Under the pieces are notes generated by a model. That model did no database searches. It was not told the origin of the DNA and saw only the letters and a program-made list of their open reading frames with translations. DNA of 64,000 nt from Cellulosimicrobium sp. Marseille-Q4280 (GTDB taxonomy: Bacteria > Actinomycetota > Actinomycetes > Actinomycetales > Cellulomonadaceae): assembly GCF_943181405.1 (NCBI RefSeq), contig NZ_CALPBY010000004.1:310001-374000 (forward strand). Direction: 5' to 3'. The translations under genes were made by a program, and so were the position numbers. This document shows, in pieces, positions 1 to 17,832 of this stretch (its first letter is position 1; every line of letters begins with the position of its first letter).

Positions 1-114
1 CTTCGACAGTCCGGCGGCGTGCAGCGCGAGCGGGTACCCGGGCGTGATGACGCCGGTCATCACCGCGACGAGCAGCCACGCCAGGCCGGGGCGGGACCGG
101 ATCAGGAGCGCCAT
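1..114 (-). CDS. Membrane protein, N-terminal fragment
   Basis: Only the first 38 codons are inside the window; the gene runs off the left edge. The reading frame begins with an ATG that overlaps the 3' end of the upstream glycosyltransferase gene by 13 bases, so it is the next gene of the same operon. The visible residues are a short basic start (MALLIRSRPG) followed by a hydrophobic stretch (LAWLLVAVMTGVITPG), typical of a first membrane segment with the N-terminus in the cytoplasm. No catalytic motif is visible. Position after two glycosyltransferases suggests a membrane glycosyltransferase, flippase or polymerase, but that is a guess from context only. Confidence 0.55.
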   Translation of the reverse strand, partial: MALLIRSRPGLAWLLVAVMTGVITPGYPLALHAAGLSK

Positions 115-1145
115 GCGTCCCCCTGCGGTCCGAGCGGGACGTACTCGACCGCCGACCCCGCACGGAAGGCCTCGACGTCGAGCCCCGAGCCGGCGACCGC
201 GTCGACGACGCGCACCGCAGACCCGCGCGCGATCTCCGCGCGGGCGTGCTCGGCGTCGGCGGCGTCGAGCACCGTGAGCGTGGTCCGGGGGGACGCGAGC
301 GGTACGGCCTCCCGCAGCGCGCGGACGTGCCGGTCCATCGCGAGGAACGAGTCCAGCCACGCGTGGCCCCGCGGGACGTCGGTGCGCTGCGGGTAGTTCT
401 CGACGAGCCGGACCGCCTGCGCCTCCGGCTCCGGGTGCTTGACGAGGAAGACGGCGCGGTTGCGCTGCCACTCGCGCACCCGGTCGGGGTCGAACCGGAC
501 CACGTGGTGGTGGTCCCAGGTCCAGGCGCGCGTGCTGTGCGCGATCGCGAGGCCGGCCCGGTGGGCGCGGTAGCCGAGGTCGGTGTCCTCCAGGCCCCAC
601 CCCCGGTAGTCGTCGTCGAAGCCTCCGAGCGCCCGGTACGCGTCCACCGGCAGGGAGAGGTTGCAGCTGAACTGCAGGTACCACGCGGCGGCGATGCGGG
701 CGTAGTTGTGGGAGTAGACCGCCGTGACGCGTTCGCGGACCTCGGGACGCCATGCGGTGCCGTCGGCGGGGGAGCGGTGGCGCCGGTGGCCGTTGAGCAG
801 GATCCCGGGGGCGGCCCGGTGCCAGCGCACGTGGTCCTGGAGCCAGCCCGGCGGCGCCTCCTGGTCGGCGTCGACGAGGACGAGGAGGTCTCCGCTCGCG
901 ACGGCGGCCCCCGCGTTGCGTGCGGCCGCCCGGTTGCCGTCGCCCTCGCGGCGCACGACGTGGACCTCCGCGGGCCCGCCGAGGTCGCGCAGGACGTCCG
1001 CGACGGGCTCGTCCGAGCCGTCGTCGACGACGACGATCTCGACCGGCACGTCGACGACCTGCTCCTGGACGGACCGCACGAGTCGCCGCGCGTCGCGGAT
1101 CCCGTCGCGGCAGATGGTCACGACCGACACCGACGCCGGGCTCAT
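102..1145 (-). CDS. Family 2 glycosyltransferase
   Basis: About 347 residues, GT-A fold. The N-terminus has the GT2 nucleotide-sugar pattern: VSVVTICRDG, then EIVVVDDGSDEP, RAAARNAG, and the metal-binding LVLVDADQEAP. Further on, the acceptor-side motif GWGLEDTDLGYR is present, as in the galactosyltransferase-like C-terminal part of polysaccharide-modifying GT2 enzymes. There are no membrane segments, so it is cytoplasmic or membrane-peripheral. The ATG at 1145 overlaps the stop of the preceding glycosyltransferase (ATGA), which fixes the start and indicates translational coupling. A longer frame upstream exists but would lie inside the neighbour. Donor and acceptor sugars cannot be read from sequence; cell-wall glycan, glycolipid or natural-product decoration are all possible. 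Confidence 0.85.
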   Translation of the reverse strand: MSPASVSVVTICRDGIRDARRLVRSVQEQVVDVPVEIVVVDDGSDEPVADVLRDLGGPAEVHVVRREGDGNRAAARNAGAAVASGDLLVLVDADQEAPPGWLQDHVRWHRAAPGILLNGHRRHRSPADGTAWRPEVRERVTAVYSHNYARIAAAWYLQFSCNLSLPVDAYRALGGFDDDYRGWGLEDTDLGYRAHRAGLAIAHSTRAWTWDHHHVVRFDPDRVREWQRNRAVFLVKHPEPEAQAVRLVENYPQRTDVPRGHAWLDSFLAMDRHVRALREAVPLASPRTTLTVLDAADAEHARAEIARGSAVRVVDAVAGSGLDVEAFRAGSAVEYVPLGPQGDAWRS

Positions 1146-2371
1146 GCGCGGGGTCCGAGCGCCGCGAGCCGGGCCGAGGTGAGGACGTGCTCGGCGAGGT
1201 CGCGTGCGCCGTCGTGCGCGGCGAGGACCGCGCCGACGGCCTCGGCACGACGCCGCAGCGCGTCGTCGGCGAGGAGACGTCGGACGGTCGGGACGAAGCG
1301 CGGTGCGACGTCGGCCGGGTCGAGGACCTCGCCCGTCCCGAGGCCGACGGCACGCCCCGCGTTCCACCGCTGCTCGTCCTGCCCCGGGAGCGCGAGCAGC
1401 GGGCGGCCGAGCGCGAGCGCCTCCATGACGCTCGTGTGCCCGCCGTGGGTGACGACGAGGTCGGCGGCGCGCGTCCACAGCATCGACTCGTCGGTGAGCT
1501 GCAGGAGGCGGTCCGCCCGGTGGTCGGCGAGCAGCGCCGGGTCGACGTTCGGTCCGGTGACGAGGACGGTGTGCGCGGGCACGTCGTCGAGCAGCCCGGC
1601 GACGGTGCGCAGGGTGGCGAACCCCTGCGCGGTGCCGCCGAGCGACACGAGGACGACGGGAGCGTGCGGGTCCAGACCCAGAAGCGTGCGGGCCTGTGCC
1701 CGGTCGGGGACCGTGAGCGGGTCGGACGCGAGGACCGGGCCGACGTGCCGGATCTCGTCGACCGTCCGCAGCGCCGCGACCGACAGCGGGTCCCGGACGT
1801 CGGCGAGCGGCTCGAACGCCGAGCGGTCCGGCACGTAGACCACGTCGCCGAGCAGCCGGCCGGCGACGTCGCGGGGGACGCCGAGGCGGTGCAGCGCCGG
1901 GGTCACGTCGCGCACCACGTCCGGGAACGGGAAGGAGAAGAAGCCGGTGTTGACGACCGTGGCCGACCGCACCCCCTCGAGCCGCGCCGAGACCGGTCCT
2001 GTCACGCGGAAGTCGGCGAGCACGACGTCGGCCCCGACCGCGCGGACCAGCGCCCGCTCCTCCTCGAGCGCGACGCGGAGGTACTCCTCGTCCGCGAGCC
2101 GCAGGCGGGGCGCAGGGCGGTGCCCGGGTGACGCCGCGCCGTCGGGTGAGGACGTGACGTCGGGCGACCCCGCGTCGTCGGGCACGGGTGGCAGCGGTGG
2201 CAGCTCGGTGAGCGTCGCGGTCGGGACGCCGCGCGCCTCGGGCCAGCGCCGGGCGTCGGCGGCCACCCCGACGACGACCTCGGCGCCCCGCGCCATGAGC
2301 TCGGTGGCGATGCGCGTGGAGCGCACCACGTGCCCGAGGCCGTGGTAGAAGGGCAGGATCACGACGCGCAC
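1142..2371 (-). CDS. GT-B glycosyltransferase (UGT/MGT type)
   Basis: 409 residues. The N-terminal Rossmann half starts MRVVILPFYHGLGHVVRS, the acceptor-side pattern of macrolide-type and MurG-like GT-B enzymes. The C-terminal half has the donor-binding signature THGGHTSVMEALALGRP followed by LALPGQDEQ, close to the GT1 consensus. The start is a GTG with an AAGGAG ribosome site a few bases upstream. It lies 67 bases downstream of the HemB-like gene and overlaps the GT2 gene by 4 bases, so all four genes here look like one operon. The sugar donor is unknown. A lipid or small-molecule acceptor is the usual role for this family. Confidence 0.85.
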   Translation of the reverse strand: MRVVILPFYHGLGHVVRSTRIATELMARGAEVVVGVAADARRWPEARGVPTATLTELPPLPPVPDDAGSPDVTSSPDGAASPGHRPAPRLRLADEEYLRVALEEERALVRAVGADVVLADFRVTGPVSARLEGVRSATVVNTGFFSFPFPDVVRDVTPALHRLGVPRDVAGRLLGDVVYVPDRSAFEPLADVRDPLSVAALRTVDEIRHVGPVLASDPLTVPDRAQARTLLGLDPHAPVVLVSLGGTAQGFATLRTVAGLLDDVPAHTVLVTGPNVDPALLADHRADRLLQLTDESMLWTRAADLVVTHGGHTSVMEALALGRPLLALPGQDEQRWNAGRAVGLGTGEVLDPADVAPRFVPTVRRLLADDALRRRAEAVGAVLAAHDGARDLAEHVLTSARLAALGPRA

Positions 2372-2438
2372 GGACGCTCCTTCGCGGCTCGGTCCGACCG
2401 GCGGTGGCTCCGCGCGGCCGGGTGCGGTGGACGGTCGG

Positions 2439-3527
2439 TCAGGCGAGCACGCCGCCCCTGAACCAGGCGGTCGCGCCCCGGTCGATGAGGACGGTCCCGC
2501 GCGGCCCGGCCGCGGTGACGGCGTTCACCCACAGCTCCTCGAGCCGTGCGCGGGCCGCGGCGACGCCCTCGTCGTGGGCGAGGAGCGCGAGCAGCTTCGT
2601 GGTGCCGGAGACGGTGTACGCGCCGAGCTCGACCTGCGCCGCCCGGCCGAGGAAGCCCGGCACGTCGGCGCGGACGCGGCGGACCGCCGCGAGGAGGTCG
2701 GGATCCTGCTCGACGAGGCGCGTGGTCGCGGGGTCGTCGAGGAACCGGGCGAGGGCGTCCGCCGAGTCGAGCAGGCGGCGGGTCTCGACGACGACGTGGA
2801 AGTTCTCCACGGGCTTGGTCACCGGGACGTCGGTGCCGGCGTCGATGTCGAGAACCGTCCACAGGAGCATGTCGCGCAGGTTGCCCGGCCAGATCTTCTG
2901 GTTGGTCGTGGGGTGCGTGCTCGACCCGGCATACGCGGTGCTCGTCTCGCTGTTGGTGGAGAACGAGTACACCCGGAGGCCGTCCTGCGCGACGGCGCGC
3001 GTCACCTCGACCTCCCGCGCGACCCGGCCGAGGGTGACGATCCCCGTGCCGCCGGAACGGTGCACGACGGCCGCGAGGTCGTGCAGCAGGTCCAGCGTGG
3101 CGCCGCCGTCGGGCTGTCCGTCGGCGCTCAGACCCCACTGGCCCGCGCGGTCGAGCGCGATGCTGAACGGGTCGACGACGAGCTCGAGCCCGCGGTCCCG
3201 GGCCGCGGTGGCGAGCCCCGCCACGGTGCCCACCCACGTCTCGCGTCGCCGCGCCCAGGCACCGAGGTGCGGGACGGTGTCGTCGAGGAGGCGGACCACG
3301 ACCCCCCGCAGACCCAGGGCGGCGACCTCCGCGAGGCGCGCCGCCGCCGCCGCCGTGCCGAGCCGCTCGTAGCCCGGGATGCTCCGGCTCGGCAGCGCGG
3401 AGCGCGCGTCGAGCCGCAGGTCCACGTCCAGCGGCTGCAGGAACGTACCCGGGTCGATCGTCACGTCGCGCGCTTCCGTCAGCCGTCGCGACATGCCCGC
3501 GGCCCGCATCGTGGCAGACGCCTTCAT
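2439..3527 (-). CDS. Divergent HemB (porphobilinogen synthase) paralogue
   Basis: 362 residues, first gene of the glycosyltransferase operon; ATG with a strong GGAGG site 6 bases upstream. Reading it against known HemB proteins, I recognise the family order: N-terminal RRL...LQPLDV, the PSRSIPGYERL segment (HemB: IPSMPGVYR), the metal loop as VDPFSIALDRAGQWG (about 118-132), a VYSFSTNSETSTAYAG segment (HemB: MSYSTKFASSFYG), the second Schiff-base segment GTDVPVTKPVENF with Lys238 kept, and GAYTVSG (302-308). The first active-site lysine is replaced by Asn192, and the zinc cysteines and the D-HG metal pattern are absent. A roughly 45-residue insert precedes GAYTVSG. It is therefore unlikely to condense two aminolevulinate molecules as in haem synthesis. 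It may act on one amino-ketone or aldehyde substrate linked to the sugar pathway. Function unknown. Confidence 0.7.
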   Translation of the reverse strand: MKASATMRAAGMSRRLTEARDVTIDPGTFLQPLDVDLRLDARSALPSRSIPGYERLGTAAAAARLAEVAALGLRGVVVRLLDDTVPHLGAWARRRETWVGTVAGLATAARDRGLELVVDPFSIALDRAGQWGLSADGQPDGGATLDLLHDLAAVVHRSGGTGIVTLGRVAREVEVTRAVAQDGLRVYSFSTNSETSTAYAGSSTHPTTNQKIWPGNLRDMLLWTVLDIDAGTDVPVTKPVENFHVVVETRRLLDSADALARFLDDPATTRLVEQDPDLLAAVRRVRADVPGFLGRAAQVELGAYTVSGTTKLLALLAHDEGVAAARARLEELWVNAVTAAGPRGTVLIDRGATAWFRGGVLA

Positions 3528-3596
3528 CTGTCCTCCCCCCAGAGGAGCGTCACGCTAGGGGGAACGGTGGGAGCGCTGCCACATCTGCCCGGATGG

Positions 3597-3614
3597 TGGA
3601 CACATCGGTGTCCA
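3597..3614. promoter_or_regulatory. Palindrome in divergent promoter region
   Basis: A perfect inverted repeat TGGACAC-ATCG-GTGTCCA lies in the 211-base gap between the divergent HemB-like gene (start 3527) and the MMPL gene (start 3739). Its size and place fit an operator for a dimeric regulator. No regulator gene is adjacent, so its owner is unknown. Confidence 0.4.
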
Positions 3615-3738
3615 GGACGCTCCCTGCGCTCGCCCGGTGCGGGTGGGTCCGAGGGCGCGGGGCCGACGTCGCCCGCTCCCTCCGGAGAGCAGCGGCGTAT
3701 CGTCAGAGCTCTCCCGTCGACACGGTCCGGAGGCCGCG

Positions 3739-6651
3739 GTGTCCTCAGCGCTCTACTCCCTCGGCCGCTGGGCCGTCCACGCCCGCCGTCTCGTGCTGCT
3801 GGCATGGATCGGGATCCTCGTGGTCGTCGGCGGGTTCGCCGGCCTCGTCCAGCAGGGCCTCGACGACGCCGTCACCATCCCCGGCACCGAGTCGCAGGCG
3901 GCGCTCGACCGGCTCGCCGCGACGTTTCCCCAGGTCAGCGGGGCGAGCGCACAGGTGATCGTGGTCGCGCCCGACGGCTCGACCATCGAGGACGACGCCG
4001 TGCAAGGACCCGTCGAGGACGCCGTCGACGCGCTCGGCGACGTCGACCACGTCGCCGGGGTCACGTCGCCCTACGACGACACCGTGCCCGCGTCCGTCAG
4101 CGACGACGGGACCGCGGCGCTCCTGACGGTCCAGCTCGACCAGGGCGAGAGCGAGGTCGCCGACGCGACGAAGGACGCGCTCGGCAGCGCGGTCGACGAC
4201 CTCGAGGCCGCTCTTCCCGACGGCGCGCAGGCGTCGCTCGGCGGTCAGCTCTTCAGCACCGAGTTCCCCACGCTCACGGTGACCGAGGCGCTCGGCCTGC
4301 TCGTCGCGCTCGTGGTGCTCGTCATCACGTTCGGCTCGTTCGTCGCCGCCGGCCTGCCGCTGCTCAACGCCGCGATGGGAGTCGGCGTCACCATGGGCCT
4401 GCTGTTCGCCGCGACCGCGGTCGCCCAGATCAACTCGACCACCCCGATGCTGGCCGTGATGCTCGGGCTCGCCGTCGGCATCGACTACGCGCTGTTCATC
4501 GTCTCGCGCCACCGCGACGAGCTGGCCACCGGCCTCCCGGTCGACGAGGCGGCCGCGCGGTCCGTCGCGACGGGCGGCTCCGCCGTCATCTTCGCCGGCC
4601 TCACGGTGATGATCGCGCTCGTCGGCCTCGGGGTCGCCGGCATCCCGTTCCTCACCGTCATGGGTGTCGCCGCTGCCGTCGGCGTCGGTCTCGCCGTCCT
4701 CGTCTCGGTCACGCTCCTGCCCGCGATGCTCGGCTTCGCCGGCGAACGGCTCCGGCCGAAGGCTCCCCGAGCGCGTCGCCGCGGACGCCGTCGGGCGGGA
4801 AGGGCGCCCCGGGCCCGGTCGGTGAGGCAGGACGCGTCCGCGTCGGACGCCGACGACGCGAGGGTCGACGGTGCGCCCGCCCCGGACGCGAGCGCGCCCA
4901 CGACGTCGACCGCGTCGACCGGCGTCCAGCACCACAACCGGTTCTTCGCGGGCTGGGTGCGGACCGTGACGCGGGTGCCGCTGCTGACGATCCTCATCGT
5001 GCTGGCGGGCCTCGTGCTGCTGACGCTCCCCGCGAAGGACCTGCGGCTCGCGCTGCCCGACGCGGGGACCCTGCCCGAGGACAACCAGGCGCGCGTCACG
5101 TACGACCTCGTCTCGGAGCACTTCGGGCCGGGCTTCAACGGGCCGCTCATCGTGACCGGCACGATCGTCACGTCGACGGACCCGGTCGGCCTGATGGACG
5201 ACCTGGCCGACGAGATCGGCGACCTGCCCGGCGTCGCCGACGTGCCGCTCGCGACGCCGAACCCCAGCGCGGACACGGGCATCGTCCAGGTGATCCCGAC
5301 GGGCGCTCCCGACTCCGAGGAGACGAAGGACCTCGTCACGCAGATCCGCTCGCAGCACGACCACTTCCTCGACGAGTACGGCGTCGACCTGTCGGTCACG
5401 GGGTTCACGGCCGTCGGGATCGACGTGTCGGACAAGCTCGGGGCGGCGCTCCTGCCGTTCGCGCTCGTCGTGGTCGGGCTGTCGCTCGTGCTGCTGACGA
5501 TGGTGTTCCGCTCGATCGCGGTCCCGATCAAGGCGACGGTGGGCTACCTCTTCTCCGTCGGCGCGGCGTTCGGCGTGGTGACGCTCGTGTTCGAGCAGGG
5601 CGTCATGGCGGACGCGCTCAACGTCACGCGCCTGGGCCCGGTGATCAGCTTCATGCCGATCGTCCTCATGGGCGTCCTGTTCGGCCTCGCCATGGACTAC
5701 GAGGTGTTCCTCGTCTCGCGCATCCGGGAGGACTACGTCCGCTCCGGCGACGCGCGACGGTCGATCTCGACGGGGTTCCAGGCATCCGCGAAGGTCGTCA
5801 CCGCGGCGGCGATCATCATGTTCGCGGTCTTCATCGCGTTCGTGCCCGAGGGCGACATGAGCCTCAAGCCGATCGCGCTCGGGCTCGCGGTCGGCGTGCT
5901 CGTCGACGCGTTCCTCGTGCGCATGACCCTCGTCCCCGCGGTGCTCGCCCTGCTCGGCGACCGCGCGTGGTGGATGCCGCGCCGGCTCGACCGTGTCCTG
6001 CCGTCGTTCGACGTCGAGGGCGAAGGGCTCGCACGCGAGCTCGAGCTGCGCGACTGGCCGGAGCCCGGCGCGACGGACCCCGTCGTCGCGCACGGCCTGG
6101 AGGTCGCGGGTCCGCGGGGCCCGCTCGCCGCGCCCGTCACGGTCCGCGTGCCCGACGGCGGCACGCTCGTCGTGCACGGCGCGTCGGCCGCCGCGGTGAC
6201 CGGGGTGGCGCTCGCGCTCGCCGGGCGCCTCAAGCCGTCGGCCGGGGCGCTCAAGGTCACGGGCCTCGTGCTGCCCGAGCGCGCGTCGAGCGTGCGGCGT
6301 CGGGTCGCCGTCGTCGACCTCGCCGCGGACGCCGCTGCGCTGCCCGGCGACGCCCCGGCCCCGGCGGCGCACCGCACGCACCCGGCCGCCGCCGTCGGGG
6401 CCGTGCTGGCGGAGCACCCGCGCGTCGTCGTGGTGCTCGGGACCGACGCGGTCTCCGCGCCGGACGAGCGCGCCGAGCTCGCGGTGGCCGTCGGCCGGGG
6501 GACCGACGCCGGGACGGCGGTCGTCCTCGGGTCGGTCGGGGCCTTCCCGTCCGACCTGGCCCCTCCCGGATCGCAGGTGCTCGACCTGCAACCTCCCGAG
6601 CCCGCCACGGCGGAGCAGCCGACGACCGATCTCGAGGAGGTGCGCGCATGA
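3739..6651 (+). CDS. MMPL/RND-family exporter with pseudo-ABC tail
   Basis: 970 residues from the GTG at 3739, which has GGAGG 5 bases upstream; a longer frame from 3637 lacks such support. Two MMPL halves are visible. Each has one N-terminal membrane helix, an extracytoplasmic loop and five further helices, with the family motif GIDYALFIVSR in the first half and AMDYEVFLVSRIRE in the second. A basic, low-complexity linker (about 337-395) joins them. After the last helices, roughly residues 780-950 form an extra cytoplasmic domain that resembles an ABC ATPase without its catalytic motifs: VVHGASAAAVTGVALALAG occupies the Walker A place but lacks GKS/T. The gene overlaps the YhgE/Pip gene by ATGA. 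Likely role: proton-driven export of a lipid, drug or peptide across the membrane. Confidence 0.88.
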   Translation: MSSALYSLGRWAVHARRLVLLAWIGILVVVGGFAGLVQQGLDDAVTIPGTESQAALDRLAATFPQVSGASAQVIVVAPDGSTIEDDAVQGPVEDAVDALGDVDHVAGVTSPYDDTVPASVSDDGTAALLTVQLDQGESEVADATKDALGSAVDDLEAALPDGAQASLGGQLFSTEFPTLTVTEALGLLVALVVLVITFGSFVAAGLPLLNAAMGVGVTMGLLFAATAVAQINSTTPMLAVMLGLAVGIDYALFIVSRHRDELATGLPVDEAAARSVATGGSAVIFAGLTVMIALVGLGVAGIPFLTVMGVAAAVGVGLAVLVSVTLLPAMLGFAGERLRPKAPRARRRGRRRAGRAPRARSVRQDASASDADDARVDGAPAPDASAPTTSTASTGVQHHNRFFAGWVRTVTRVPLLTILIVLAGLVLLTLPAKDLRLALPDAGTLPEDNQARVTYDLVSEHFGPGFNGPLIVTGTIVTSTDPVGLMDDLADEIGDLPGVADVPLATPNPSADTGIVQVIPTGAPDSEETKDLVTQIRSQHDHFLDEYGVDLSVTGFTAVGIDVSDKLGAALLPFALVVVGLSLVLLTMVFRSIAVPIKATVGYLFSVGAAFGVVTLVFEQGVMADALNVTRLGPVISFMPIVLMGVLFGLAMDYEVFLVSRIREDYVRSGDARRSISTGFQASAKVVTAAAIIMFAVFIAFVPEGDMSLKPIALGLAVGVLVDAFLVRMTLVPAVLALLGDRAWWMPRRLDRVLPSFDVEGEGLARELELRDWPEPGATDPVVAHGLEVAGPRGPLAAPVTVRVPDGGTLVVHGASAAAVTGVALALAGRLKPSAGALKVTGLVLPERASSVRRRVAVVDLAADAAALPGDAPAPAAHRTHPAAAVGAVLAEHPRVVVVLGTDAVSAPDERAELAVAVGRGTDAGTAVVLGSVGAFPSDLAPPGSQVLDLQPPEPATAEQPTTDLEEVRA

Positions 6652-8777
6652 GCGCAGCCGTCCCGGGCCCCGGCCCGCGCGCCGTCCGCGGTCGCCGGGC
6701 CTGGACCGTCGCCGCCGCCGTCGCGCTGCCGCTCGTCGTGCTCGGTCTGCTCCTGTGGGCCCTGTGGGACCCGCAGGAGCGGCTCGACACCGTGCAGGCG
6801 GCGATCGTCAACCACGACGAGCCCGTCGAGATCCACGGGCAGACCGTGCCCCTCGGGCGCCAGCTCACCGCGGGTCTCGTGAGCGGCGGGGCCGCGTCGA
6901 CCGACACGGGACCGGTCGCGGTCCAGCCGGCGGCCGGCACGACCAACTACGACTGGGTCGTCACCGACTCTGCGGACGCGTCGGCGGGCCTCGCCGACGG
7001 TACGTACGCCGCGGTCGTGACCATCCCGGAGAACTTCTCGGCTGCGGCCACGTCGTTCAGCGGGGACGACCCGTCGGCCGCGACGCAGGCCACGCTCTCG
7101 GTCGAGACCGCGCCCGGCGGACGTGTCGTGGACGAGGCGCTCGCGCGCATCGTCACGACCACGGCGTCGACGGTCCTCGGGCAGACCCTCACGGAGAACT
7201 ACGTCGACGGCGTGCTGGTCGGCTTCACGACCCTGAACGAGCAGCTCGGCGAGGCCGCCGACGGCGCGACGCAGCTCGCGGACGGCGCGTCCGACGCGAA
7301 CGACGGCGCTGCGCAGCTCGCCGACGGCGCCGGCCAGGTCGCGACGGGCGCGGTCGAGCTGGCCTCGGGGGTGGGCGAGCTCGCCGCGGGGGCGGACGAG
7401 CTCGCGGCCGGGACGTCGCAGAGCGCCGACGGCGCGGCGGCGCTCGCCGAAGGTGCCGGCGCTCTGTCCAGCGGGGTCCAGGGCGTCGCCGGCGGAGCCG
7501 CGCAGCTCTCCTCGGGCGTCGCCGACCTCGGGGCGGGGGTCGCGCCCCTGCCCGCGCAGGCCACGGAGCTCGCCGACGGTGCGCAGCAGGTGTCGGACGG
7601 CGTCGGGCGGCTCGTGCAGGAGAACGTCGTGGGCCTCGACGCCGCGAAGCGCGCCGCCGGCTGCGCCGACGACCCGACGTCGGACGTGTGCCAGCGGCTC
7701 GACGCCCAGATCGCCCAGCTCCAGCAGCTCGCCGGCGCGGCGCAGCAGGTCGCCGACGGGAACGCCGCGCTCGCGGGCGACCCGGCGTCGTCCACGGGCC
7801 TGTACGGTCTCGCGGCGGGCGTCCAGCAGCTCGTCGGGGCCTCGCAGCAGCTCTCCGACGGCGCGGCCCAGGCGGCGACCGGGGCGTCCGGTCTCGCGAC
7901 CGGCGCGGACGACCTCGCCGCCGGGCTCGACCAGCTCGACGCGGGCGCGTCCGGGCTCGCGGCGGGCGTAGGCGAGCTCTCGACGGGGGCGGACCAGCTC
8001 GCCACCGGGACCGAGGGGCTGGCGACGGGCGCGACCGACCTGGCCGGCGGCGTCGGGCAGCTCGCCGACGGCTCGTCCGACCTCGCGGACGGTCTGGGGG
8101 AGGCGGTCGGCCAGGTGCCCTCGTACACCGACGACGAGGCCACGCACCTGGCGTCGGTCGTGGCGAACCCGGTCGAGGCGCCCGGGACGGACGGCCTCGG
8201 CACCGGCTCGACCGGGCCGCTGTTCGCGGTGCTCGCGCTGTGGCTCGGGGCGCTCGCGGTGTTCGTCGCCTTCCCGCCCGTGCCGGCGCAGCTCCTCGGG
8301 TCGACGCGCGGTGCCGGTCGCCTCGCGCTCCGGGCCCTCGCCCTGCCTGCCGCGATCGGTGTCGCGACGGGTCTCGTCGTCGGCGGCGTGCTGGCCGCCG
8401 TCGAGGACGCGAACCTCGGCGGGTGGCTCGGGCTGCTCGCCCTCGGCGCACTCTCGTCGGTCGTCTTCGTCGCGCTCAACCAGGCGCTCGCCGCGCTGCT
8501 CGGCAACGTGGGACGCGCGCTGAGCCTGCTCGTCGCCGTCCTCCTCGTCGCGACGGGGATCGTCGCGACGGTCCCCGCGGCGCTCACCGGTCTGCGCGAC
8601 CTGCTGCCCGTCGGGTCCGCGCTCGGCGCGCTCACCGCGGTCGTCGACCCCGGCGCCACCGGAGGAGCGGGCGACGTGGTGTCGCTGGTGATCTGGGCGC
8701 TCGTGTCGGTCGCGGTGACGACCCTCGTCGTCGCCCGGCGCCGGACCGTGCGCGTGGAGCAGCTCCTGCGCGCCTGA
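6648..8777 (+). CDS. YhgE/Pip-family membrane protein
   Basis: 709 residues. One N-terminal membrane helix (about 22-43), then a large extracytoplasmic region, then about five C-terminal helices (from about 525), as in YhgE/Pip and the phage-infection protein family. The extracytoplasmic part carries a long run of short repeats of the type LADGAxxLAxGA (about residues 198-485), which predicts a long coiled or helical rod. A Cys pair (AGCADD and SDVCQR) interrupts the repeats and may form a disulfide. The ATG overlaps the MMPL stop. In related actinobacteria, MMPL and YhgE genes are often paired, and the pair probably forms one export assembly. The substrate is unknown. Confidence 0.85.
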   Translation: MSAAVPGPGPRAVRGRRAWTVAAAVALPLVVLGLLLWALWDPQERLDTVQAAIVNHDEPVEIHGQTVPLGRQLTAGLVSGGAASTDTGPVAVQPAAGTTNYDWVVTDSADASAGLADGTYAAVVTIPENFSAAATSFSGDDPSAATQATLSVETAPGGRVVDEALARIVTTTASTVLGQTLTENYVDGVLVGFTTLNEQLGEAADGATQLADGASDANDGAAQLADGAGQVATGAVELASGVGELAAGADELAAGTSQSADGAAALAEGAGALSSGVQGVAGGAAQLSSGVADLGAGVAPLPAQATELADGAQQVSDGVGRLVQENVVGLDAAKRAAGCADDPTSDVCQRLDAQIAQLQQLAGAAQQVADGNAALAGDPASSTGLYGLAAGVQQLVGASQQLSDGAAQAATGASGLATGADDLAAGLDQLDAGASGLAAGVGELSTGADQLATGTEGLATGATDLAGGVGQLADGSSDLADGLGEAVGQVPSYTDDEATHLASVVANPVEAPGTDGLGTGSTGPLFAVLALWLGALAVFVAFPPVPAQLLGSTRGAGRLALRALALPAAIGVATGLVVGGVLAAVEDANLGGWLGLLALGALSSVVFVALNQALAALLGNVGRALSLLVAVLLVATGIVATVPAALTGLRDLLPVGSALGALTAVVDPGATGGAGDVVSLVIWALVSVAVTTLVVARRRTVRVEQLLRA

Positions 8778-11583: not shown

Positions 11584-13773
11584 GTGACATCTCGCGCTCC
11601 CCGGTCGACCACCACCCGTCTGCCCCGTGTCCGGGCCTCCGAGCTGCGCGGTCGCGGCTGGCTCAACACCGGCGGCAAGGACGTGGCCCTCGCCGACCTG
11701 CGCGGCAAGGTCGTGATCCTCGACTTCTGGACCTTCTGCTGCGTCAACTGTCTCCACGTCCTCGACGAGCTGCGCGAGCTCGAGGAGGCGCACCGCGACG
11801 AGCTCGTGATCATCGGCGTGCACTCGCCGAAGTTCGAGCACGAGGCCGACCCCGACGCCCTGGCTGCTGCCGTCGAGCGGTACGAGGTGCACCACCCCGT
11901 GCTCGACGACCCCGAGCTCGTGACATGGTCCGCGTACACCGCGCGCGCCTGGCCGACGCTCGTCGTCATCGACCCCGAGGGGTACGTCGTCGCGCAGATG
12001 GCAGGGGAGGGCCACGCCTCGGCGATCGCGGTGCTCGTCGACGAGCTCGTCGCGGAGCACGAGGCCCGCGGCACCCTGCACCGTGGCTCAGGCCCCTACG
12101 TACCGCCGGCCCCGACGTCCGGCACGCTGCGGTTCCCCGCCAAGGCGATCACGCTGCCGGGCGGCAACCTGCTCGTCGCGGACGCCGGTCACCACTCGCT
12201 CGCCGAGCTCGCGCCTGACACCGAGACGCTCGTCCGCCGCATCGGCACCGGCGAGCGCGGGCTCGTCGACGGCACGCCCGACGTCGCGCGGTTCAGCGAG
12301 CCGAACGGCCTGTGCCTCGTGCCGGACGGTCTGCGGGCGTCGCTCGGGTACGACGTGCTCGTCACCGACACGGTGAACCATGCGTTGCGGGGCGTGCGGT
12401 TGTCGGACGGCGTCGTGACGACCGTCGCCGGGACGGGCGAGCAGTTCATGGTCGGTGGGGTCGAGAACGTCGTCTTCTCGTCGGGCATCGCGTCGGGTGC
12501 TGTGGTCGGGGCGGCCGGGGACGGTGGTGGTGGCGGGTCTACCATCCGGTCGCTCGTTCCTCGCGACCTCCCGCCAGACCCGCCACGACCCGCCACCACC
12601 ACCGTCCCCGCCCTGTCCTCCGAGCGTCGCCTCGGTCCCTTCGATCCCCGTGCCACGTACGAGCCGCTCGAAGTGAAGCTGTCGTCGCCGTGGGACGTGG
12701 CGTGGTCCGGCGAGCTGGGCGGTTTCGTCGTCGCGATGGCCGGGAACCACACCCTGTGGGCGTTCGACGGGGGGTGGAAGATCGGGCTGCTCGCCGGGAC
12801 GATGAACGAAGGGCTCGAGGACGGGCGCGGCGAGGATGCGTGGTTCGCGCAGCCGTCCGGGTTGGCCGTGGCTGCCGACGGGGCCGTCTGGGTCGCGGAC
12901 GCGGAGACGTCGGCGCTGCGCCGTGTCGACGGGCTACGTGGCGGCGTCGCGGTCGTGCCGGACGGAGTGTCGGTGCGGACGGCCGTCGGGCAGGGGCTGT
13001 TCGACTTCGGGCACCGGGACGGGCCGACCGACCAGGCGCTGTTCCAGCACCCGCTGGGGGTCGCGGTGCTGCCCGACGGGAGCGTCGTCGTCGCCGACAC
13101 GTACGACGGCGCGATCCGTCGCGTCGTGCTCGACGGCGCGGCGTCGGGCGCCGACGTCGGGGACGACGCCGCCGGGACGCGGCTCGCGGGCGAGGTCACG
13201 ACGCTGGCGACCGGGCTCGCCGAGCCGAGCGACGTCGTCGTGCAGGTGGTCGAGGATGCCGACGGGCCGGCGCAGGTCCACCTGCTCGTCGTCGAGTCGA
13301 CGGCGCACCGGATCACGCGCGTCGCGCTGCCCGCCGACCTCGCGGGAGAGGTGCTCGACGGCGGCGCGCACCGCACGCAGCGACCCGTCACCGAGATCGC
13401 GGCCGGGGCGCTGCGGCTCGACGTGCCGTTCGTGCCCGCGCCCGGTCAGAAGCTCGACGACCGGTTCGGGCCGTCGACCGAGCTCCGCGTGAGCGCGACG
13501 CCGCCGGAGCTGCTGCTCGCCGGCGCGGGCACGGGCACGGAGCTCGGCCGCGACCTGGCGATCGACCCCGCCGTGACCGAGGGGGTGCTGCACGTGACGG
13601 CTCGGGCTGCGTCGTGCGACGTCGTGCCGCTCGGACCCGACGGCCGGCCGGACCCGGACGTCTTCCCTGCGTGCCACCTCGCGCAGCAGGACTGGGGCGT
13701 CCCGGTGCGCGTCGTCGCCGGGGACGGCACGCCGGGAGCCGTCCCGGAGCTCACGCTCCCGCTGCGCGGCTGA
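11584..13773 (+). CDS. Thioredoxin-NHL repeat protein (NHLRC2-like)
   Basis: 729 residues. Residues about 20-165 form a thioredoxin/TlpA-like domain with the motif FWTFCCVNCLHVLDEL (CVNC at the redox site). Residues 190-560 form an NHL beta-propeller with repeats such as LLVADAGHHSLAEL, DVLVTDTVNHALRGV, VWVADAETSALRRV and VVVADTYDGAIRRV. A short beta-rich C-terminal domain follows. This is the architecture of vertebrate NHLRC2 and its bacterial relatives. A Gly/Pro-rich insert (about 305-345) breaks the propeller and coincides with a perfect DNA inverted repeat. A GACAAT -10-like box at 11573-11578 lies 5 bases before the GTG, so the message may be leaderless. The 3' end overlaps the convergent gene by 23 bases. 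Confidence 0.82.
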   Translation: MTSRAPRSTTTRLPRVRASELRGRGWLNTGGKDVALADLRGKVVILDFWTFCCVNCLHVLDELRELEEAHRDELVIIGVHSPKFEHEADPDALAAAVERYEVHHPVLDDPELVTWSAYTARAWPTLVVIDPEGYVVAQMAGEGHASAIAVLVDELVAEHEARGTLHRGSGPYVPPAPTSGTLRFPAKAITLPGGNLLVADAGHHSLAELAPDTETLVRRIGTGERGLVDGTPDVARFSEPNGLCLVPDGLRASLGYDVLVTDTVNHALRGVRLSDGVVTTVAGTGEQFMVGGVENVVFSSGIASGAVVGAAGDGGGGGSTIRSLVPRDLPPDPPRPATTTVPALSSERRLGPFDPRATYEPLEVKLSSPWDVAWSGELGGFVVAMAGNHTLWAFDGGWKIGLLAGTMNEGLEDGRGEDAWFAQPSGLAVAADGAVWVADAETSALRRVDGLRGGVAVVPDGVSVRTAVGQGLFDFGHRDGPTDQALFQHPLGVAVLPDGSVVVADTYDGAIRRVVLDGAASGADVGDDAAGTRLAGEVTTLATGLAEPSDVVVQVVEDADGPAQVHLLVVESTAHRITRVALPADLAGEVLDGGAHRTQRPVTEIAAGALRLDVPFVPAPGQKLDDRFGPSTELRVSATPPELLLAGAGTGTELGRDLAIDPAVTEGVLHVTARAASCDVVPLGPDGRPDPDVFPACHLAQQDWGVPVRVVAGDGTPGAVPELTLPLRG
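12516..12610. repeat. 24-bp perfect inverted repeat inside the NHL gene
   Basis: Arms at 12516-12539 and 12587-12610 are exact reverse complements (24 bp), separated by 47 bases. The element is in frame and encodes the Gly-rich and Pro-rich low-complexity insert of the NHL propeller. It could be a short palindromic insertion element fixed within the gene. Confidence 0.7.
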
Positions 13774-16399
13774 CGAGGCGGCGCGCCGTCTTGGCGGCGC
13801 GCGACGCCCCGGTGAACCCCCCTGCCCACTCCCGGAAGTCGAGGTCCTCGACGTCCCCGTGGCCGCCCCGCGCGGACTCCTCCTCGAGGCGGTCGAGCAG
13901 CGACGACAGCCCGCGGGTGCTGCGGTCGACTCGCGGGAGCAGACGCACCAGGACGTCCACCACCGCGTCGCGAGCACCCGGGGCCGCGTCGGCCGCGTCG
14001 CCGAGCGCAGGCCCCCAGCGCGACACCGTCGCGGCCGGCGCGAGCAGGGCCATCGCGTCTGCCACCTCTGCCGCGCTGACGCGCCCAGGTACGACGAGTG
14101 CCGCGAACACGTCCGCAGCGCGCACCCTGTCGGAGTGCTCGCTCGCCGCGAGCCCCGCCGCGATCGTCGCCGCACTGAGCGATCCCGTGCGCCCGGGGTG
14201 CGTGAGCAGCGCGTCGAGCACGATGGGGACGTCCGGCTCGCGGGTCGACCAGGTCAGGGACGCGTCGAGCACGGAGCGGACGCCGGCGACCAGGAAGTGC
14301 TCGGCGTCGTGCGGGAACGTCGTGGCTGTCCAGGCGTGCCAGTCGTTGAGGTGCTCGGCGTCGTAGTGCCGGACGGTGCGGCTCGTGACGGCAGGGGGCT
14401 CGCGGTACGTCGTGGCGTGCGGTGACACACGGTCGACGGCGACGGTGAACCTCCAGACGTGTCGGCCGTACGACAGCTCCACGCGGGGCCTGACGTTCGC
14501 CGCGATCGGCAGTCCACGCCCAGTGGTCCCGAGACCCGCGTCCACCAGCGCCGGGTCCGCGCAGAGCGGGTCGCGCGTGCGCGACGCCGCCACCCACCAC
14601 GCGGCCGTGCCGCGGTCGACGTCGTGGCGCACGATGTCGGCGGACGCAGCGGGCCCTCCCAGAGCGTGCACGACCACCCGGGACAGGGTGGGGTCCAGAG
14701 GCACCCCCGCCGTGCGCCAGGCGCTGAGCGCGGCCGGTCGTCCGTCGGGATGAAGCCGCAGCAGCGCGGCGGCGAGGTCGTTCGTCCTCGGCGTGCCAGG
14801 CGTGCCAGGCGTGCCGAGCAGGTCGAGCAGACGCCGGACGAACGCCTCGGGGTCGATCCACGGGCCGTTCGTCGGCGTGGCGAGGAGCGGCGTACGAGGT
14901 GCAGCACCGGACAGCCCTGCCCCCACCTCGGCGAGGCGCTCGCGCAGGAAGCCGGTCTCGGCGGGCCTCGGTGAGGCGTGCGGGCCCGGTGGTACCGGGG
15001 TGCCGCACGCGTCGAGAACCATGTCGGCGATCGCTGCAGAGACCGGGGATCCCCACTCCATGCCGTCGCGTTCCCGCTGGGCGACGGTACGTGCGCGACG
15101 GGCGAGCGGTGCGAGCGCGAAAGGGTCGGGCAGGACCGCGAGTGCTGCCAGCACCTGCTCCACCTCGAGCGGGTCGGAAGCATCCTCGAGGAGGGCCGCC
15201 GTGCGTTCCAGGGCCTCGCCGGCGGACACCGGCGGGGGTAGCCGCAGCGCGGGTGGTGACCATTTCGTCGAATCGGCTTGTGCGGGTGTCTCCGTGGAGT
15301 CGGCAGCAGGTCGTGCGACCCGGGCGGAGAGCGTCGGATGGACCGGCGTGTCGACGGCACGGTGGAGAGCGCCGGCTCGTTCCAGGACGTCGAGGGCACG
15401 GGACTGCACGTCGACGTGCGGGTGGTCGAGAGCGCGTACGGCGCTCTCCAGCACGGTCGGGTCCGCGGGGAGGCGCCTGGCGACGACGTCGAGCAGGCGC
15501 ACCGCCTTCAGGGCGGTGCCCTTCCCGGCCGTCGCGAACACGACGCCCAGGCCAGGTCCGACGGTCGCGTCGTCGAGGAGACCGGACTTCTCGACCGTGC
15601 AGAGACGGTCGACGGCGAAGGTCACCGAGGCGGGGACGCTCGACCGCACGACGGCGAGGAACGCGGGCTGCCTGCGCGCGAGCTCGGCCGGAGTCGGGTC
15701 CAGCGCTGTGAAGGTCCGCGCGAACCATCCCGCCTGATAGGCCCCCAGGTCGCTCACGAGCGCACCGAGACAGGCGTCGAGCGCTCGGTCGCGGTCCACG
15801 GTGCCGTCCGCAGCGAGCTCGACCACCGTCTGGGTCCACGACCCTCCGCCGTACCTGCCGTACCTGTCGGCGTTCGTCAGGCTCACCTCCCCGCCGCCCT
15901 CGGTCGAGAACATCGGCCAGAAGCAGCGGTCCACGAGCTCGGGGTCCTCACGGATCACGTACGCCGAGGTCGCGTCGTCGCTCCGGCGGGTGCACAGCCC
16001 GCTGACGAACGCGAGCACGTAGTCCCGGTCCGGGTCGAGAGCGACCGCCCCGAGACGCTCCAACGTCCGGATCGTGACGAACTCCGGACGGAAGAGAAGG
16101 GTCTCCGACATGTTCTCCACCTCCCTTCTCACGGTGTCCGGTAGCCACCGCGGCGGGGTGTCGGAGGAACGGAGCGGGCGCTCACCGTCGGCGAGGGCCT
16201 CGAGCGCCGAGCAGACAGCACGCCAGGTGATCAGGTGACGCTCCCAGTCACGCACGCCCGGGTCCGCGGCACGCGCGGCATCGCCCCGCTCCTGGAGCAT
16301 GCCGAACACGTCGGCGCGAGGGACTCCGCGGAGCCGCGAGAACGGTACTGAGGGGTACACGGGTAGGAGGATCGCACCTTCCGCCGACAGGGACGCCAC
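13751..16399 (-). CDS. DUF6493-like helical-repeat protein A
   Basis: 882 residues, GTG start with GGGAGG 7 bases upstream. No catalytic motif or membrane segment. The N-terminal half shows the DUF6493-type signature: WFARTFTALDPTPAELARRQ, then FAVDRLCTVEKSGLLDD, TAGKGTALKAVRLLDVVARR and HPHVDVQSRALDVLE, which read as HEAT-like alpha-helical repeats. The C-terminal part (LDALLTHPGRTG, AAGLAASEHSDRVRAADVF) parallels the C-terminus of the gene at 17829. The middle is Pro-rich and variable. It is divergent from the SWIM gene, with only 44 bases between starts, so the genes probably share a control region. In other actinobacteria such proteins occur with SWIM proteins, MoxR-type ATPases and VWA proteins (recalled, not checked here). 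A scaffold role is likely. Confidence 0.65.
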   Translation of the reverse strand: MASLSAEGAILLPVYPSVPFSRLRGVPRADVFGMLQERGDAARAADPGVRDWERHLITWRAVCSALEALADGERPLRSSDTPPRWLPDTVRREVENMSETLLFRPEFVTIRTLERLGAVALDPDRDYVLAFVSGLCTRRSDDATSAYVIREDPELVDRCFWPMFSTEGGGEVSLTNADRYGRYGGGSWTQTVVELAADGTVDRDRALDACLGALVSDLGAYQAGWFARTFTALDPTPAELARRQPAFLAVVRSSVPASVTFAVDRLCTVEKSGLLDDATVGPGLGVVFATAGKGTALKAVRLLDVVARRLPADPTVLESAVRALDHPHVDVQSRALDVLERAGALHRAVDTPVHPTLSARVARPAADSTETPAQADSTKWSPPALRLPPPVSAGEALERTAALLEDASDPLEVEQVLAALAVLPDPFALAPLARRARTVAQRERDGMEWGSPVSAAIADMVLDACGTPVPPGPHASPRPAETGFLRERLAEVGAGLSGAAPRTPLLATPTNGPWIDPEAFVRRLLDLLGTPGTPGTPRTNDLAAALLRLHPDGRPAALSAWRTAGVPLDPTLSRVVVHALGGPAASADIVRHDVDRGTAAWWVAASRTRDPLCADPALVDAGLGTTGRGLPIAANVRPRVELSYGRHVWRFTVAVDRVSPHATTYREPPAVTSRTVRHYDAEHLNDWHAWTATTFPHDAEHFLVAGVRSVLDASLTWSTREPDVPIVLDALLTHPGRTGSLSAATIAAGLAASEHSDRVRAADVFAALVVPGRVSAAEVADAMALLAPAATVSRWGPALGDAADAAPGARDAVVDVLVRLLPRVDRSTRGLSSLLDRLEEESARGGHGDVEDLDFREWAGGFTGASRAAKTARRLVSRAAGA

Positions 16400-16443
16400 C
16401 GGGCACCTCCCGTTCTGTCGGTCCGGGCACCTACGCTGCCGCC

Positions 16444-17832
16444 ATGTCCACGACGACGGAGCAGACGCTCCGCTACGCGCGGCCCTCGCTGATGAGCCCC
16501 GGCTCGCGGGGGAACGAGCTCATGCTGTCGACGAGCGGCGGGGTGTCGACGTCGGGAGAGACGGACCACCCCCGCTTCTTCGACGACTTCCTCGGGCACG
16601 CCGAGCAGAACGCGGCGGCGCTGCTCGCCGTCTCTCGCGTGGCGCGCACGCGCTTCTACACGCCACCCGGCATGCTCGCGGCCGCACTCCGCGCCGCTGA
16701 CCCCGTGGTCACGAGCAACGGCGACCGCCTGCGGTTCGAGAGCTTCTCCGCGTGCTGCGGCGTCTATGCCCGTCTCGACCTCCTCCCTGGGAGCCTGGAG
16801 GCACCCGCGCTCGCGAGCGGGACCACCAACGTCGACTTCAACCCGCCCGTCCGTGAGGCCCTCGCCCGTGTCGGTGGCCGTGACCCCCTCCACCTCCGGG
16901 TCGGGGAGGACGTGGTCGTCACCACGCTCGACGGTTCCGTCACCGAGAAGAAGGTGCCCCTTCCGGAACGGTGGTTGCGCGGTTTCGCGGAGGCGCAGGT
17001 CGCCGCGGCAGGGATGGAGCCGGTCATCGACGTCGCCGCCGTGGAGGCGCGGCGCTTCCTGCGCTCGCTCCCGCGGACCCCGTCCCGCGGCAGCCTGTGG
17101 GTCACGTCGACGACCTCTGGGCTGCGGCTGGCGAGCCGACCGTCGGGACCCAGCGTCGGGCTCTCGGGCGTCGAGCGGCTGCGCGTCGCCGAGCCACTGC
17201 TCCGGTTCGCCCGCAGGCTGCGGATCTACACGCGAGTGGTCGACGACGGAGCGGTCGCCGCGAGCGTGTGGGAGGTGGAGCTCGACGACGCCCGGTTGGT
17301 GCTCGGGATCAGTCCGGAGCGCTCGCGCGGGTTCTCCGGCGAGGGCGGTGTGCTGGTCGATCTCGCGGACGACGCGGCCGTCGACGACGCCGATCTGGTC
17401 TCCGCGGTCCTGGCGTTCGAGCCTGTCGTGGACGTCGATCACCTGAGCTGCGAGACGCGTCTGACCACGGAACGGGTTCGTCGGGCCCTGACGCGTCTCG
17501 GTGCCGCGGGTCGGGTCGGGTTCGACGTCGCGGAGCGAGCGTACTTCCACCGCGAGCTGCCCTACGACCGCGAGTCCATCGACCGGATGCACCCCCGCCT
17601 CGCCGGTGCCCGCGCCCTGGTCGCCGACGGCGCCGTCCGGTTCGTCCGCCTGGGTCCGGCGGGTGGGGGCGACGACTGGCGCACCGCGCACGTGCGCAGC
17701 GGCGACGTGGAGCACGTGGTCCGGCTCGGGCCGCAGGGCGACCGGTGCACGTGCCCCTGGTTCGCGAGGCACCGGGACTTGCGGGGACCGTGCAAGCACG
17801 TGCTGGCCGCTCGCGCGGCGAGCACCTCGTGA
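16444..17832 (+). CDS. SWIM zinc-finger protein
   Basis: 462 residues. The C-terminus has a SWIM motif, CTCPW near residue 435 followed by GPCKHVLA near 450 (CxC...CxH), which binds zinc and mediates DNA or protein contact. The rest lacks an enzyme motif. The N-terminal region (RFYTPPGMLAAALRAADPVV) is typical of YehQ-like SWIM proteins. A TACGCT box lies 6 bases before the ATG and there is no good ribosome site, so a leaderless message is likely. The stop overlaps the GTG of the following DUF6493-like gene (GTGA), so the two are translated together. Probable role: nucleic-acid or partner-binding module of the DUF6493-SWIM system. Confidence 0.8.
   Translation: MSTTTEQTLRYARPSLMSPGSRGNELMLSTSGGVSTSGETDHPRFFDDFLGHAEQNAAALLAVSRVARTRFYTPPGMLAAALRAADPVVTSNGDRLRFESFSACCGVYARLDLLPGSLEAPALASGTTNVDFNPPVREALARVGGRDPLHLRVGEDVVVTTLDGSVTEKKVPLPERWLRGFAEAQVAAAGMEPVIDVAAVEARRFLRSLPRTPSRGSLWVTSTTSGLRLASRPSGPSVGLSGVERLRVAEPLLRFARRLRIYTRVVDDGAVAASVWEVELDDARLVLGISPERSRGFSGEGGVLVDLADDAAVDDADLVSAVLAFEPVVDVDHLSCETRLTTERVRRALTRLGAAGRVGFDVAERAYFHRELPYDRESIDRMHPRLAGARALVADGAVRFVRLGPAGGGDDWRTAHVRSGDVEHVVRLGPQGDRCTCPWFARHRDLRGPCKHVLAARAASTS

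Follow-up and report, generated by a model that had tools for sequence, protein, structure and literature searches.

A locus of the actinobacterium Cellulosimicrobium sp. Marseille-Q4280 raises the question of what a diverged homolog of HemB might be doing at the head of a group of glycosyltransferase genes. HemB, the porphobilinogen synthase (PBGS, or 5-aminolevulinate (ALA) dehydratase), is generally regarded as a single-purpose, nearly universal enzyme of the heme pathway, in which an A-site lysine and carboxylate-binding arginines have roles next to a P-site lysine. In the window, that is, the whole 64,000-nucleotide stretch of DNA analyzed here (contig NZ_CALPBY010000004.1, positions 310,001 to 374,000), the HemB-like gene is the first of four genes that lie on one strand in the order hemB-like, GT1, GT2, MFS and that we call the cassette. 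A first-pass annotation of this DNA had proposed that a one-lysine paralog of HemB heads a set with two glycosyltransferases (GTs) and a membrane protein; our analysis bears this out and adds to it the identity of the membrane protein, a transporter of the major facilitator superfamily (MFS), a second family member in Dyadobacter, and the replacement of a TetR gene at the locus. The HemB-like protein shares ancestry and, by prediction, fold with PBGS; it is derived from this enzyme but, most likely, is no longer a porphobilinogen synthase.

The shared ancestry is confirmed by profile methods. In a profile-profile comparison with hhalign, the HemB-like protein matches HemB at 98.7%, and the HemB profile scores 42.6 bits against this protein, compared to 15.2 bits for the best of 4000 shuffles; because the shuffle control falls far below the real score, chance similarity is excluded. 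The complete order of HemB motifs recognized in the first-pass annotation is recovered in the alignment with ordinary HemB, with D119, K238 (in VTKP), Y304, V306, S307 and G308 all in register. Placement in another family by sequence was rejected, given that Pfam and NCBIfam report none; profile comparison, suggested earlier as a check, thus yields HemB by hhalign and no other family, but not a detection by the ALAD family of Pfam. The gene has a GGAGG-like site upstream of its ATG and coding-type codon usage (GC3 = 0.96). The same genome also contains an ordinary, single-copy hemB about 110 kb away (G000:C4:201200-202204), which rules out that the HemB-like gene is the only hemB of this genome and makes it a paralog, as anticipated. 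When the predicted structure was compared with the PDB using VIA-align, which covers the Foldseek top 1000, PBGS filled the first 33 of the best 50 rows listed (with two ordinary HemBs in the alignment behind the model), followed by class I aldolases as the next fold group. Accordingly, PBGS leads the structural comparison that had been suggested along with the profile search, and the protein is predicted to form a PBGS-type barrel in which the P-site lysine ends a strand.

The protein departs from PBGS in one half of the active site. The P half-site is recognizable by Lys238, the counterpart of Lys252 that is identified as the P-site Schiff-base lysine of human PBGS in PMC7725820, and by the VSG motif. 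At the A-site, YSAKYAS of HemB is replaced by YSFSTNSETS. The earlier assignment of Asn192 to the position of the A-site lysine is reproduced in three alignments (hhalign, hmmsearch against E. coli PBGS, and MAFFT), whereas the fourth, MAFFT L-INS-i, sets Glu194 at this position because of a two-residue insertion; in none of the four does a lysine occupy it. The reported loss of the zinc cysteines and of the HG metal pattern is evident as well: the zinc cysteines and HGHCG give way to DPFSIALDRAGQWGLS, which takes the place of either HGHCG or DVAMDPYSSDGHDG, the type present in the ordinary HemB of Dyadobacter, so that neither the Zn-type nor the Asp-type set of ligands is kept. Further differences from PBGS are the loss of the YGPFR arginine, the replacement of YQM by QKI, which brings in a new lysine (Lys211), a Thr instead of Glu after the retained VSG, and an insert between the KP and VSG motifs, which is present as described earlier but is 43 rather than 45 residues long. 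The Dyadobacter relative has the same changes, with an insert of 39 residues, and both proteins have DPxxxxxxxxxxWGxS at the metal motif. For comparison, we examined 48 loci, leaving out ten weak phylum-sample rows without a locus, and obtained 46 HemB frames (L014 and L023 were frameless and were dropped). The A-site lysine motif is present in all 46, in 43 by pattern and in three (L019, L029 and L058) by reading; the P-site lysine is present in all of them by selection because the frames were picked by the KP...VSG pattern. In an alignment of 20 ordinary HemBs from these loci, every sequence has both lysines and the arginine of YGPFR, and the KP-VSG spacing is constant in 19, the value of 86 in the remaining one probably reflecting another KP picked by the script.

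The single relative found, in Dyadobacter beijingensis (Bacteroidota), was detected by two scans with exact eight-residue patterns over a genome collection of, by its description, 84,980 species; because the patterns were exact, members without those strings were missed. The two proteins match at 43% over a 72-residue core and at 33% over 256 aligned positions, and the Dyadobacter genome also encodes an ordinary HemB (478.3 bits). The Dyadobacter relative passes the Pfam PF00490 threshold (46.3 against 24.6) and fails that of NCBIfam (44.4 of 297). In the phylogenetic tree, the two members group as a single clade (support 100/100) on very long branches (7.24 and 5.82 changes per column), with a warning of the tree program on the odd letter make-up of the sequences. 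An independent loss of the A-site lysine in each member is disfavored by the shared insert and the single clade, despite the very long branches. Both proteins contain QKI, KPxExFH and LGAYxVSGT, none of which was used as a search pattern, which argues against simple decay.

Single-sequence searches yielded no further full-length match in 39 genomes of relatives, 394 of the class, 200 of the family and 396 of the phylum; these samples overlap and contain the genome itself, and scoring was limited to five candidates per genome in the class and phylum searches and in the class search with GT1, and to ten in the family search. Weak matches (E from 1e-3 to 1e-8) appeared in 9 other genomes of the class, 1 of the family and 29 of the phylum, and those that were read are ordinary HemBs, except for L014 and L023. 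With the Dyadobacter copy as the query, no other match at 1e-10 was obtained in 222 genomes of its family, and 18 others in 373 genomes of its phylum scored at most 37.1 bits, compared to 739 bits for the query itself. The HemB-like protein has no match in phages or plasmids and no relative in viral contigs, and the cassette was therefore rejected as phage or plasmid cargo; the only plasmid match of the Dyadobacter copy is an annotated ordinary hemB of Arthrobacter. A literature search by title and start of abstract, with subscription papers not covered, returned no description of a one-lysine HemB paralog, of a HemB homolog in a non-tetrapyrrole cluster, or of the Dyadobacter gene set described below; in sections 5 and 6 of PMC11481567, hemB is mentioned solely in the form of a deletion strain, and searching PMC10098953 for the term gives no hemB.

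The company of the HemB-like gene points away from heme. GT1 is closest, in its C-terminal half, to natural-product glycosyltransferases (oleandomycin GT, CalG2 and CalG4), although it scores below the cutoff of the NCBIfam MGT family (81.8 of 260 bits), and GT2 matches EpsD and chondroitin synthase, which are polysaccharide enzymes. The GT1 stop and the GT2 ATG share ATGA and the MFS gene starts inside the end of GT2, whereas 67 bases separate the HemB-like gene from GT1. A search of the 344 other class genomes gave no GT1 relative at E<=1e-30; plasmids lacked any GT match at 1e-20, and phages any match to GT2 at 1e-10. Among PHROGs, GT2 weakly matches glycosyltransferase families and the MFS protein one family of unknown function. 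The possibility that the cassette is an anti-phage system was rejected because PADLOC matches none of the four proteins.

Comparison with congeners shows what occupies this place elsewhere. The S9 peptidase gene adjoining the cassette is found in 12 congeners, of which nine stretches were compared (G001, G003 and G011 were left out, the match being partial or near a contig end). The peptidase, an alpha/beta hydrolase and a WYL regulator are present in all nine and an MMPL gene in eight, while the HemB-like gene, GT1 and MFS are found in none, and GT2 only as a 28.6% partial match in L043. DNA similarity to L002, the stretch of our genome that contains the locus, ends near 12871 and restarts at 17690 (17726 in L042). 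A TetR gene lies at the place of the cassette in all eight congener stretches that have both flanks (the ninth has none) and is absent from L002 and the window, the only parts of our genome searched for it; thus, the cassette occupies the site that TetR has in these congeners. The GC content does not suggest a foreign donor, the cassette edges show no notable repeat or mobile element among the matches listed, and neither a tRNA gene nor an Rfam match at the gathering score occurs in L002 and the window. With co-directional biosynthetic, tailoring and export genes, and with a locus that lacks it in eight of eight congener stretches, the cassette has the features of a gene cluster, and the best reading is that it was acquired and is of the specialized-metabolite type.

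Table 1. Coordinates of the cassette, of the active-site features of the HemB-like protein and of the Dyadobacter gene set
Feature	Position	Strand	Remarks
HemB-like gene (PBGS paralog)	2439..3527	-	362 aa; cassette gene 1; ATG start
Lys238 codon, kept P-site lysine in VTKP	2814..2816	-	C-terminal end of predicted strand 234-238
YSFSTNSETS (187-196)	2940..2969	-	predicted strand 185-192 ends at Asn192
Insert, KP to VSG motifs, about residues 245-287	2667..2795	-	alignment
VSG (306-308), kept P-site motif	2604..2612	-	alignment
GT1 glycosyltransferase, MGT/CalG-like C-terminal half	1142..2371	-	THGGH motif; GTG start; Pfam, NCBIfam
GT2 family-2 glycosyltransferase	102..1145	-	347 aa; DDGS, DAD, EDTDL motifs; ATGA overlap with GT1
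MFS transporter, start	1..114	-	433 aa; runs beyond the window, L002:12813-14114
Stretch unlike congeners (TetR gene there instead)	1..3689	.	window part of L002 about 12872-17689
Dyadobacter beijingensis gene set, three chorismate-binding enzymes	L033:7087-18049 and L040:1062-1769	same-strand run	neighbor scan

The relative found sits in a different setting. The Dyadobacter gene has a PabAB-like gene on one side and a PhzE-like gene (matching 3r74 with 435.9 bits) on the other, in a run of same-strand genes that also includes those for a KAS III-like protein, an AMP ligase, a FeeM-like acyltransferase, an isochorismate synthase, a PPTase and a heme-oxygenase-like protein (3dde, 207.3 bits). 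Neither a glycosyltransferase nor an MFS gene was seen among the neighbors scanned. All that the two settings have in common is a gene set that looks biosynthetic and contains no heme genes. A specialized metabolite as the end of the pathway is plausible, considering the presence of a relative in another phylum and the natural-product-type matches of GT1.

The heme-oxygenase-like protein encoded in the Dyadobacter set is also found on Pseudomonas plasmids, and the one region that was read has no annotated HemB-like gene; accordingly, this protein is no pointer to the function of the HemB-like protein. A plasmid set (L070, NZ_CP046442.1 31225-38967) that includes an anthranilate synthase, a phenylacetate-CoA ligase-like protein, an acetyltransferase, a heme-oxygenase-like protein and a flavodoxin partly resembles the Dyadobacter set; no annotated HemB is present there.

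What, then, might the HemB-like protein do? Retention of the P-site lysine and VSG, together with the rebuilding of the A half-site and the metal site, fits an enzyme that still makes a single imine and works either with a new second substrate or without one. It is quite possible that the first cassette enzyme is an aldolase-like offshoot of PBGS with a single Schiff-base lysine, the imine and the chemistry being deduced from the residues retained; in this reading, Lys238, which ends a predicted strand of the model, would correspond to the one essential lysine with which a barrel strand terminates in class I aldolases such as deoxyribose-phosphate aldolase (DERA), even though Pfam reports no aldolase family for this protein. 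We can only infer that, as had been suggested, the protein is catalytically active on an amino-ketone and that this leads to a glycoconjugate. In the fuller scenario, which we put forward tentatively and consider somewhat doubtful in its entirety, a new branch of the PBGS fold was recruited from tetrapyrrole synthesis to specialized metabolism with only the P half-site kept. Lys238 would still bind a small keto or amino-keto acid through its ketone as an imine, with ALA as the simplest candidate because any cell that has hemB produces it. The A half-site in its rebuilt form (NSETS, QKI) would bring another partner, with which, in the absence of a metal or second lysine, the substrate would be joined or cleaved in the manner of class I aldolases, in a metal-free cross-condensing or aldolase-like reaction; GT1 and GT2 would both glycosylate the product, and the MFS protein would carry it out of the cell. 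If this scenario is true, a two-substrate pyrrole synthase can be converted into a different carbon-bond-forming enzyme, and a natural one-lysine variant makes the division of labor between the two PBGS lysines testable, while VYSFSTNSETS, QKI and the KP..VSG insert provide a searchable signature for an undescribed class of metabolites.

Several observations weigh against this view. Pfam reports no family for the HemB-like protein, PF00490 included (E<=10, HMMER filters on); its NCBIfam NF006762 score is 17.3 of 297 bits; PBGS is not among the matches when PDB sequences are searched with this protein alone; and the HemB of the strain itself shows no significant similarity in plain BLASTP (best segment E 0.016). 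Because such single-sequence searches fail, homology to HemB is visible only with profiles or through the Dyadobacter relative. The five versions of the structural model range in pLDDT from 71.2 to 52.0, with residues 195-215 beside the active site below 50, and the PBGS fold is favored in the model because of the two ordinary HemBs in its alignment. Only two members were found, those of the window and Dyadobacter; 8 of the 11 identical residues of VYSFSTNSETS are ascertained because YSFSTNSE was a search pattern; and the neighbors scanned beside the Dyadobacter copy include no glycosyltransferase.

Other explanations draw on the same observations. The flanking of the Dyadobacter copy by PabAB-like and PhzE-like genes, and a pocket so widely rebuilt (QKI for YQM, WGxS for HGHCG), would suit a use of Lys238 that has nothing to do with an aldol or pyrrole-type condensation, such as a lyase or isomerase reaction or amine chemistry, for instance, on a chorismate-derived compound; we consider this rather unlikely, given that none of the four cassette genes matches a chorismate enzyme. 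It is unlikely, too, that the HemB-like gene is a mere neighbor with a separate role while the glycosyltransferases and the MFS protein serve a cell-surface glycan: the similarity of GT2 to EpsD and chondroitin synthase, the gap before GT1 as opposed to the overlaps further down, and the other neighbors in Dyadobacter speak for it, but the four genes share one strand within one stretch missing at the congener locus, and GT1 is nearer to natural-product glycosyltransferases.

A catalytically dead homolog (pseudoenzyme) with a binding or regulatory role would account for the disappearance of the A-site lysine, the metal ligands and the arginine of YGPFR and for the very long branches, and the identity of the replacement motif in the two proteins stems in part from the way the relative was found; the retained P-site lysine and VSG and the conservation of QKI, KPxExFH and LGAYxVSGT across phyla make this unlikely. 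The same P-site lysine and VSG could also belong to a metal-free, one-lysine synthase that still makes porphobilinogen, but both genomes also have an ordinary hemB, the A-site lysine and the arginine invariant in ordinary HemBs are gone, and the genomic company consists of glycosyltransferases rather than heme genes, so that such an activity is highly improbable. The preferred reading remains an aldolase-like offshoot of PBGS with one imine-forming lysine.

A few features beside the cassette deserve mention. Because the TetR gene of the eight congeners is missing here, a local repressor of the divergent MMPL gene (window, about 3739-6651) may have been lost. The gap between the WYL and MMPL genes is a small variable spot in L041-L048, about 3 kb in four congeners and 1.0-1.3 kb in four; judging from the translations, the gaps of about 3 kb seem to contain alpha/beta hydrolase and glyoxalase-like frames. 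The large gene adjoining MMPL contains 21-base periodic repeats (window 7247-8092) and has no Pfam match at 1e-5. Further on (window 11584-13773), a single protein combines a thioredoxin-like domain with NHL repeats.

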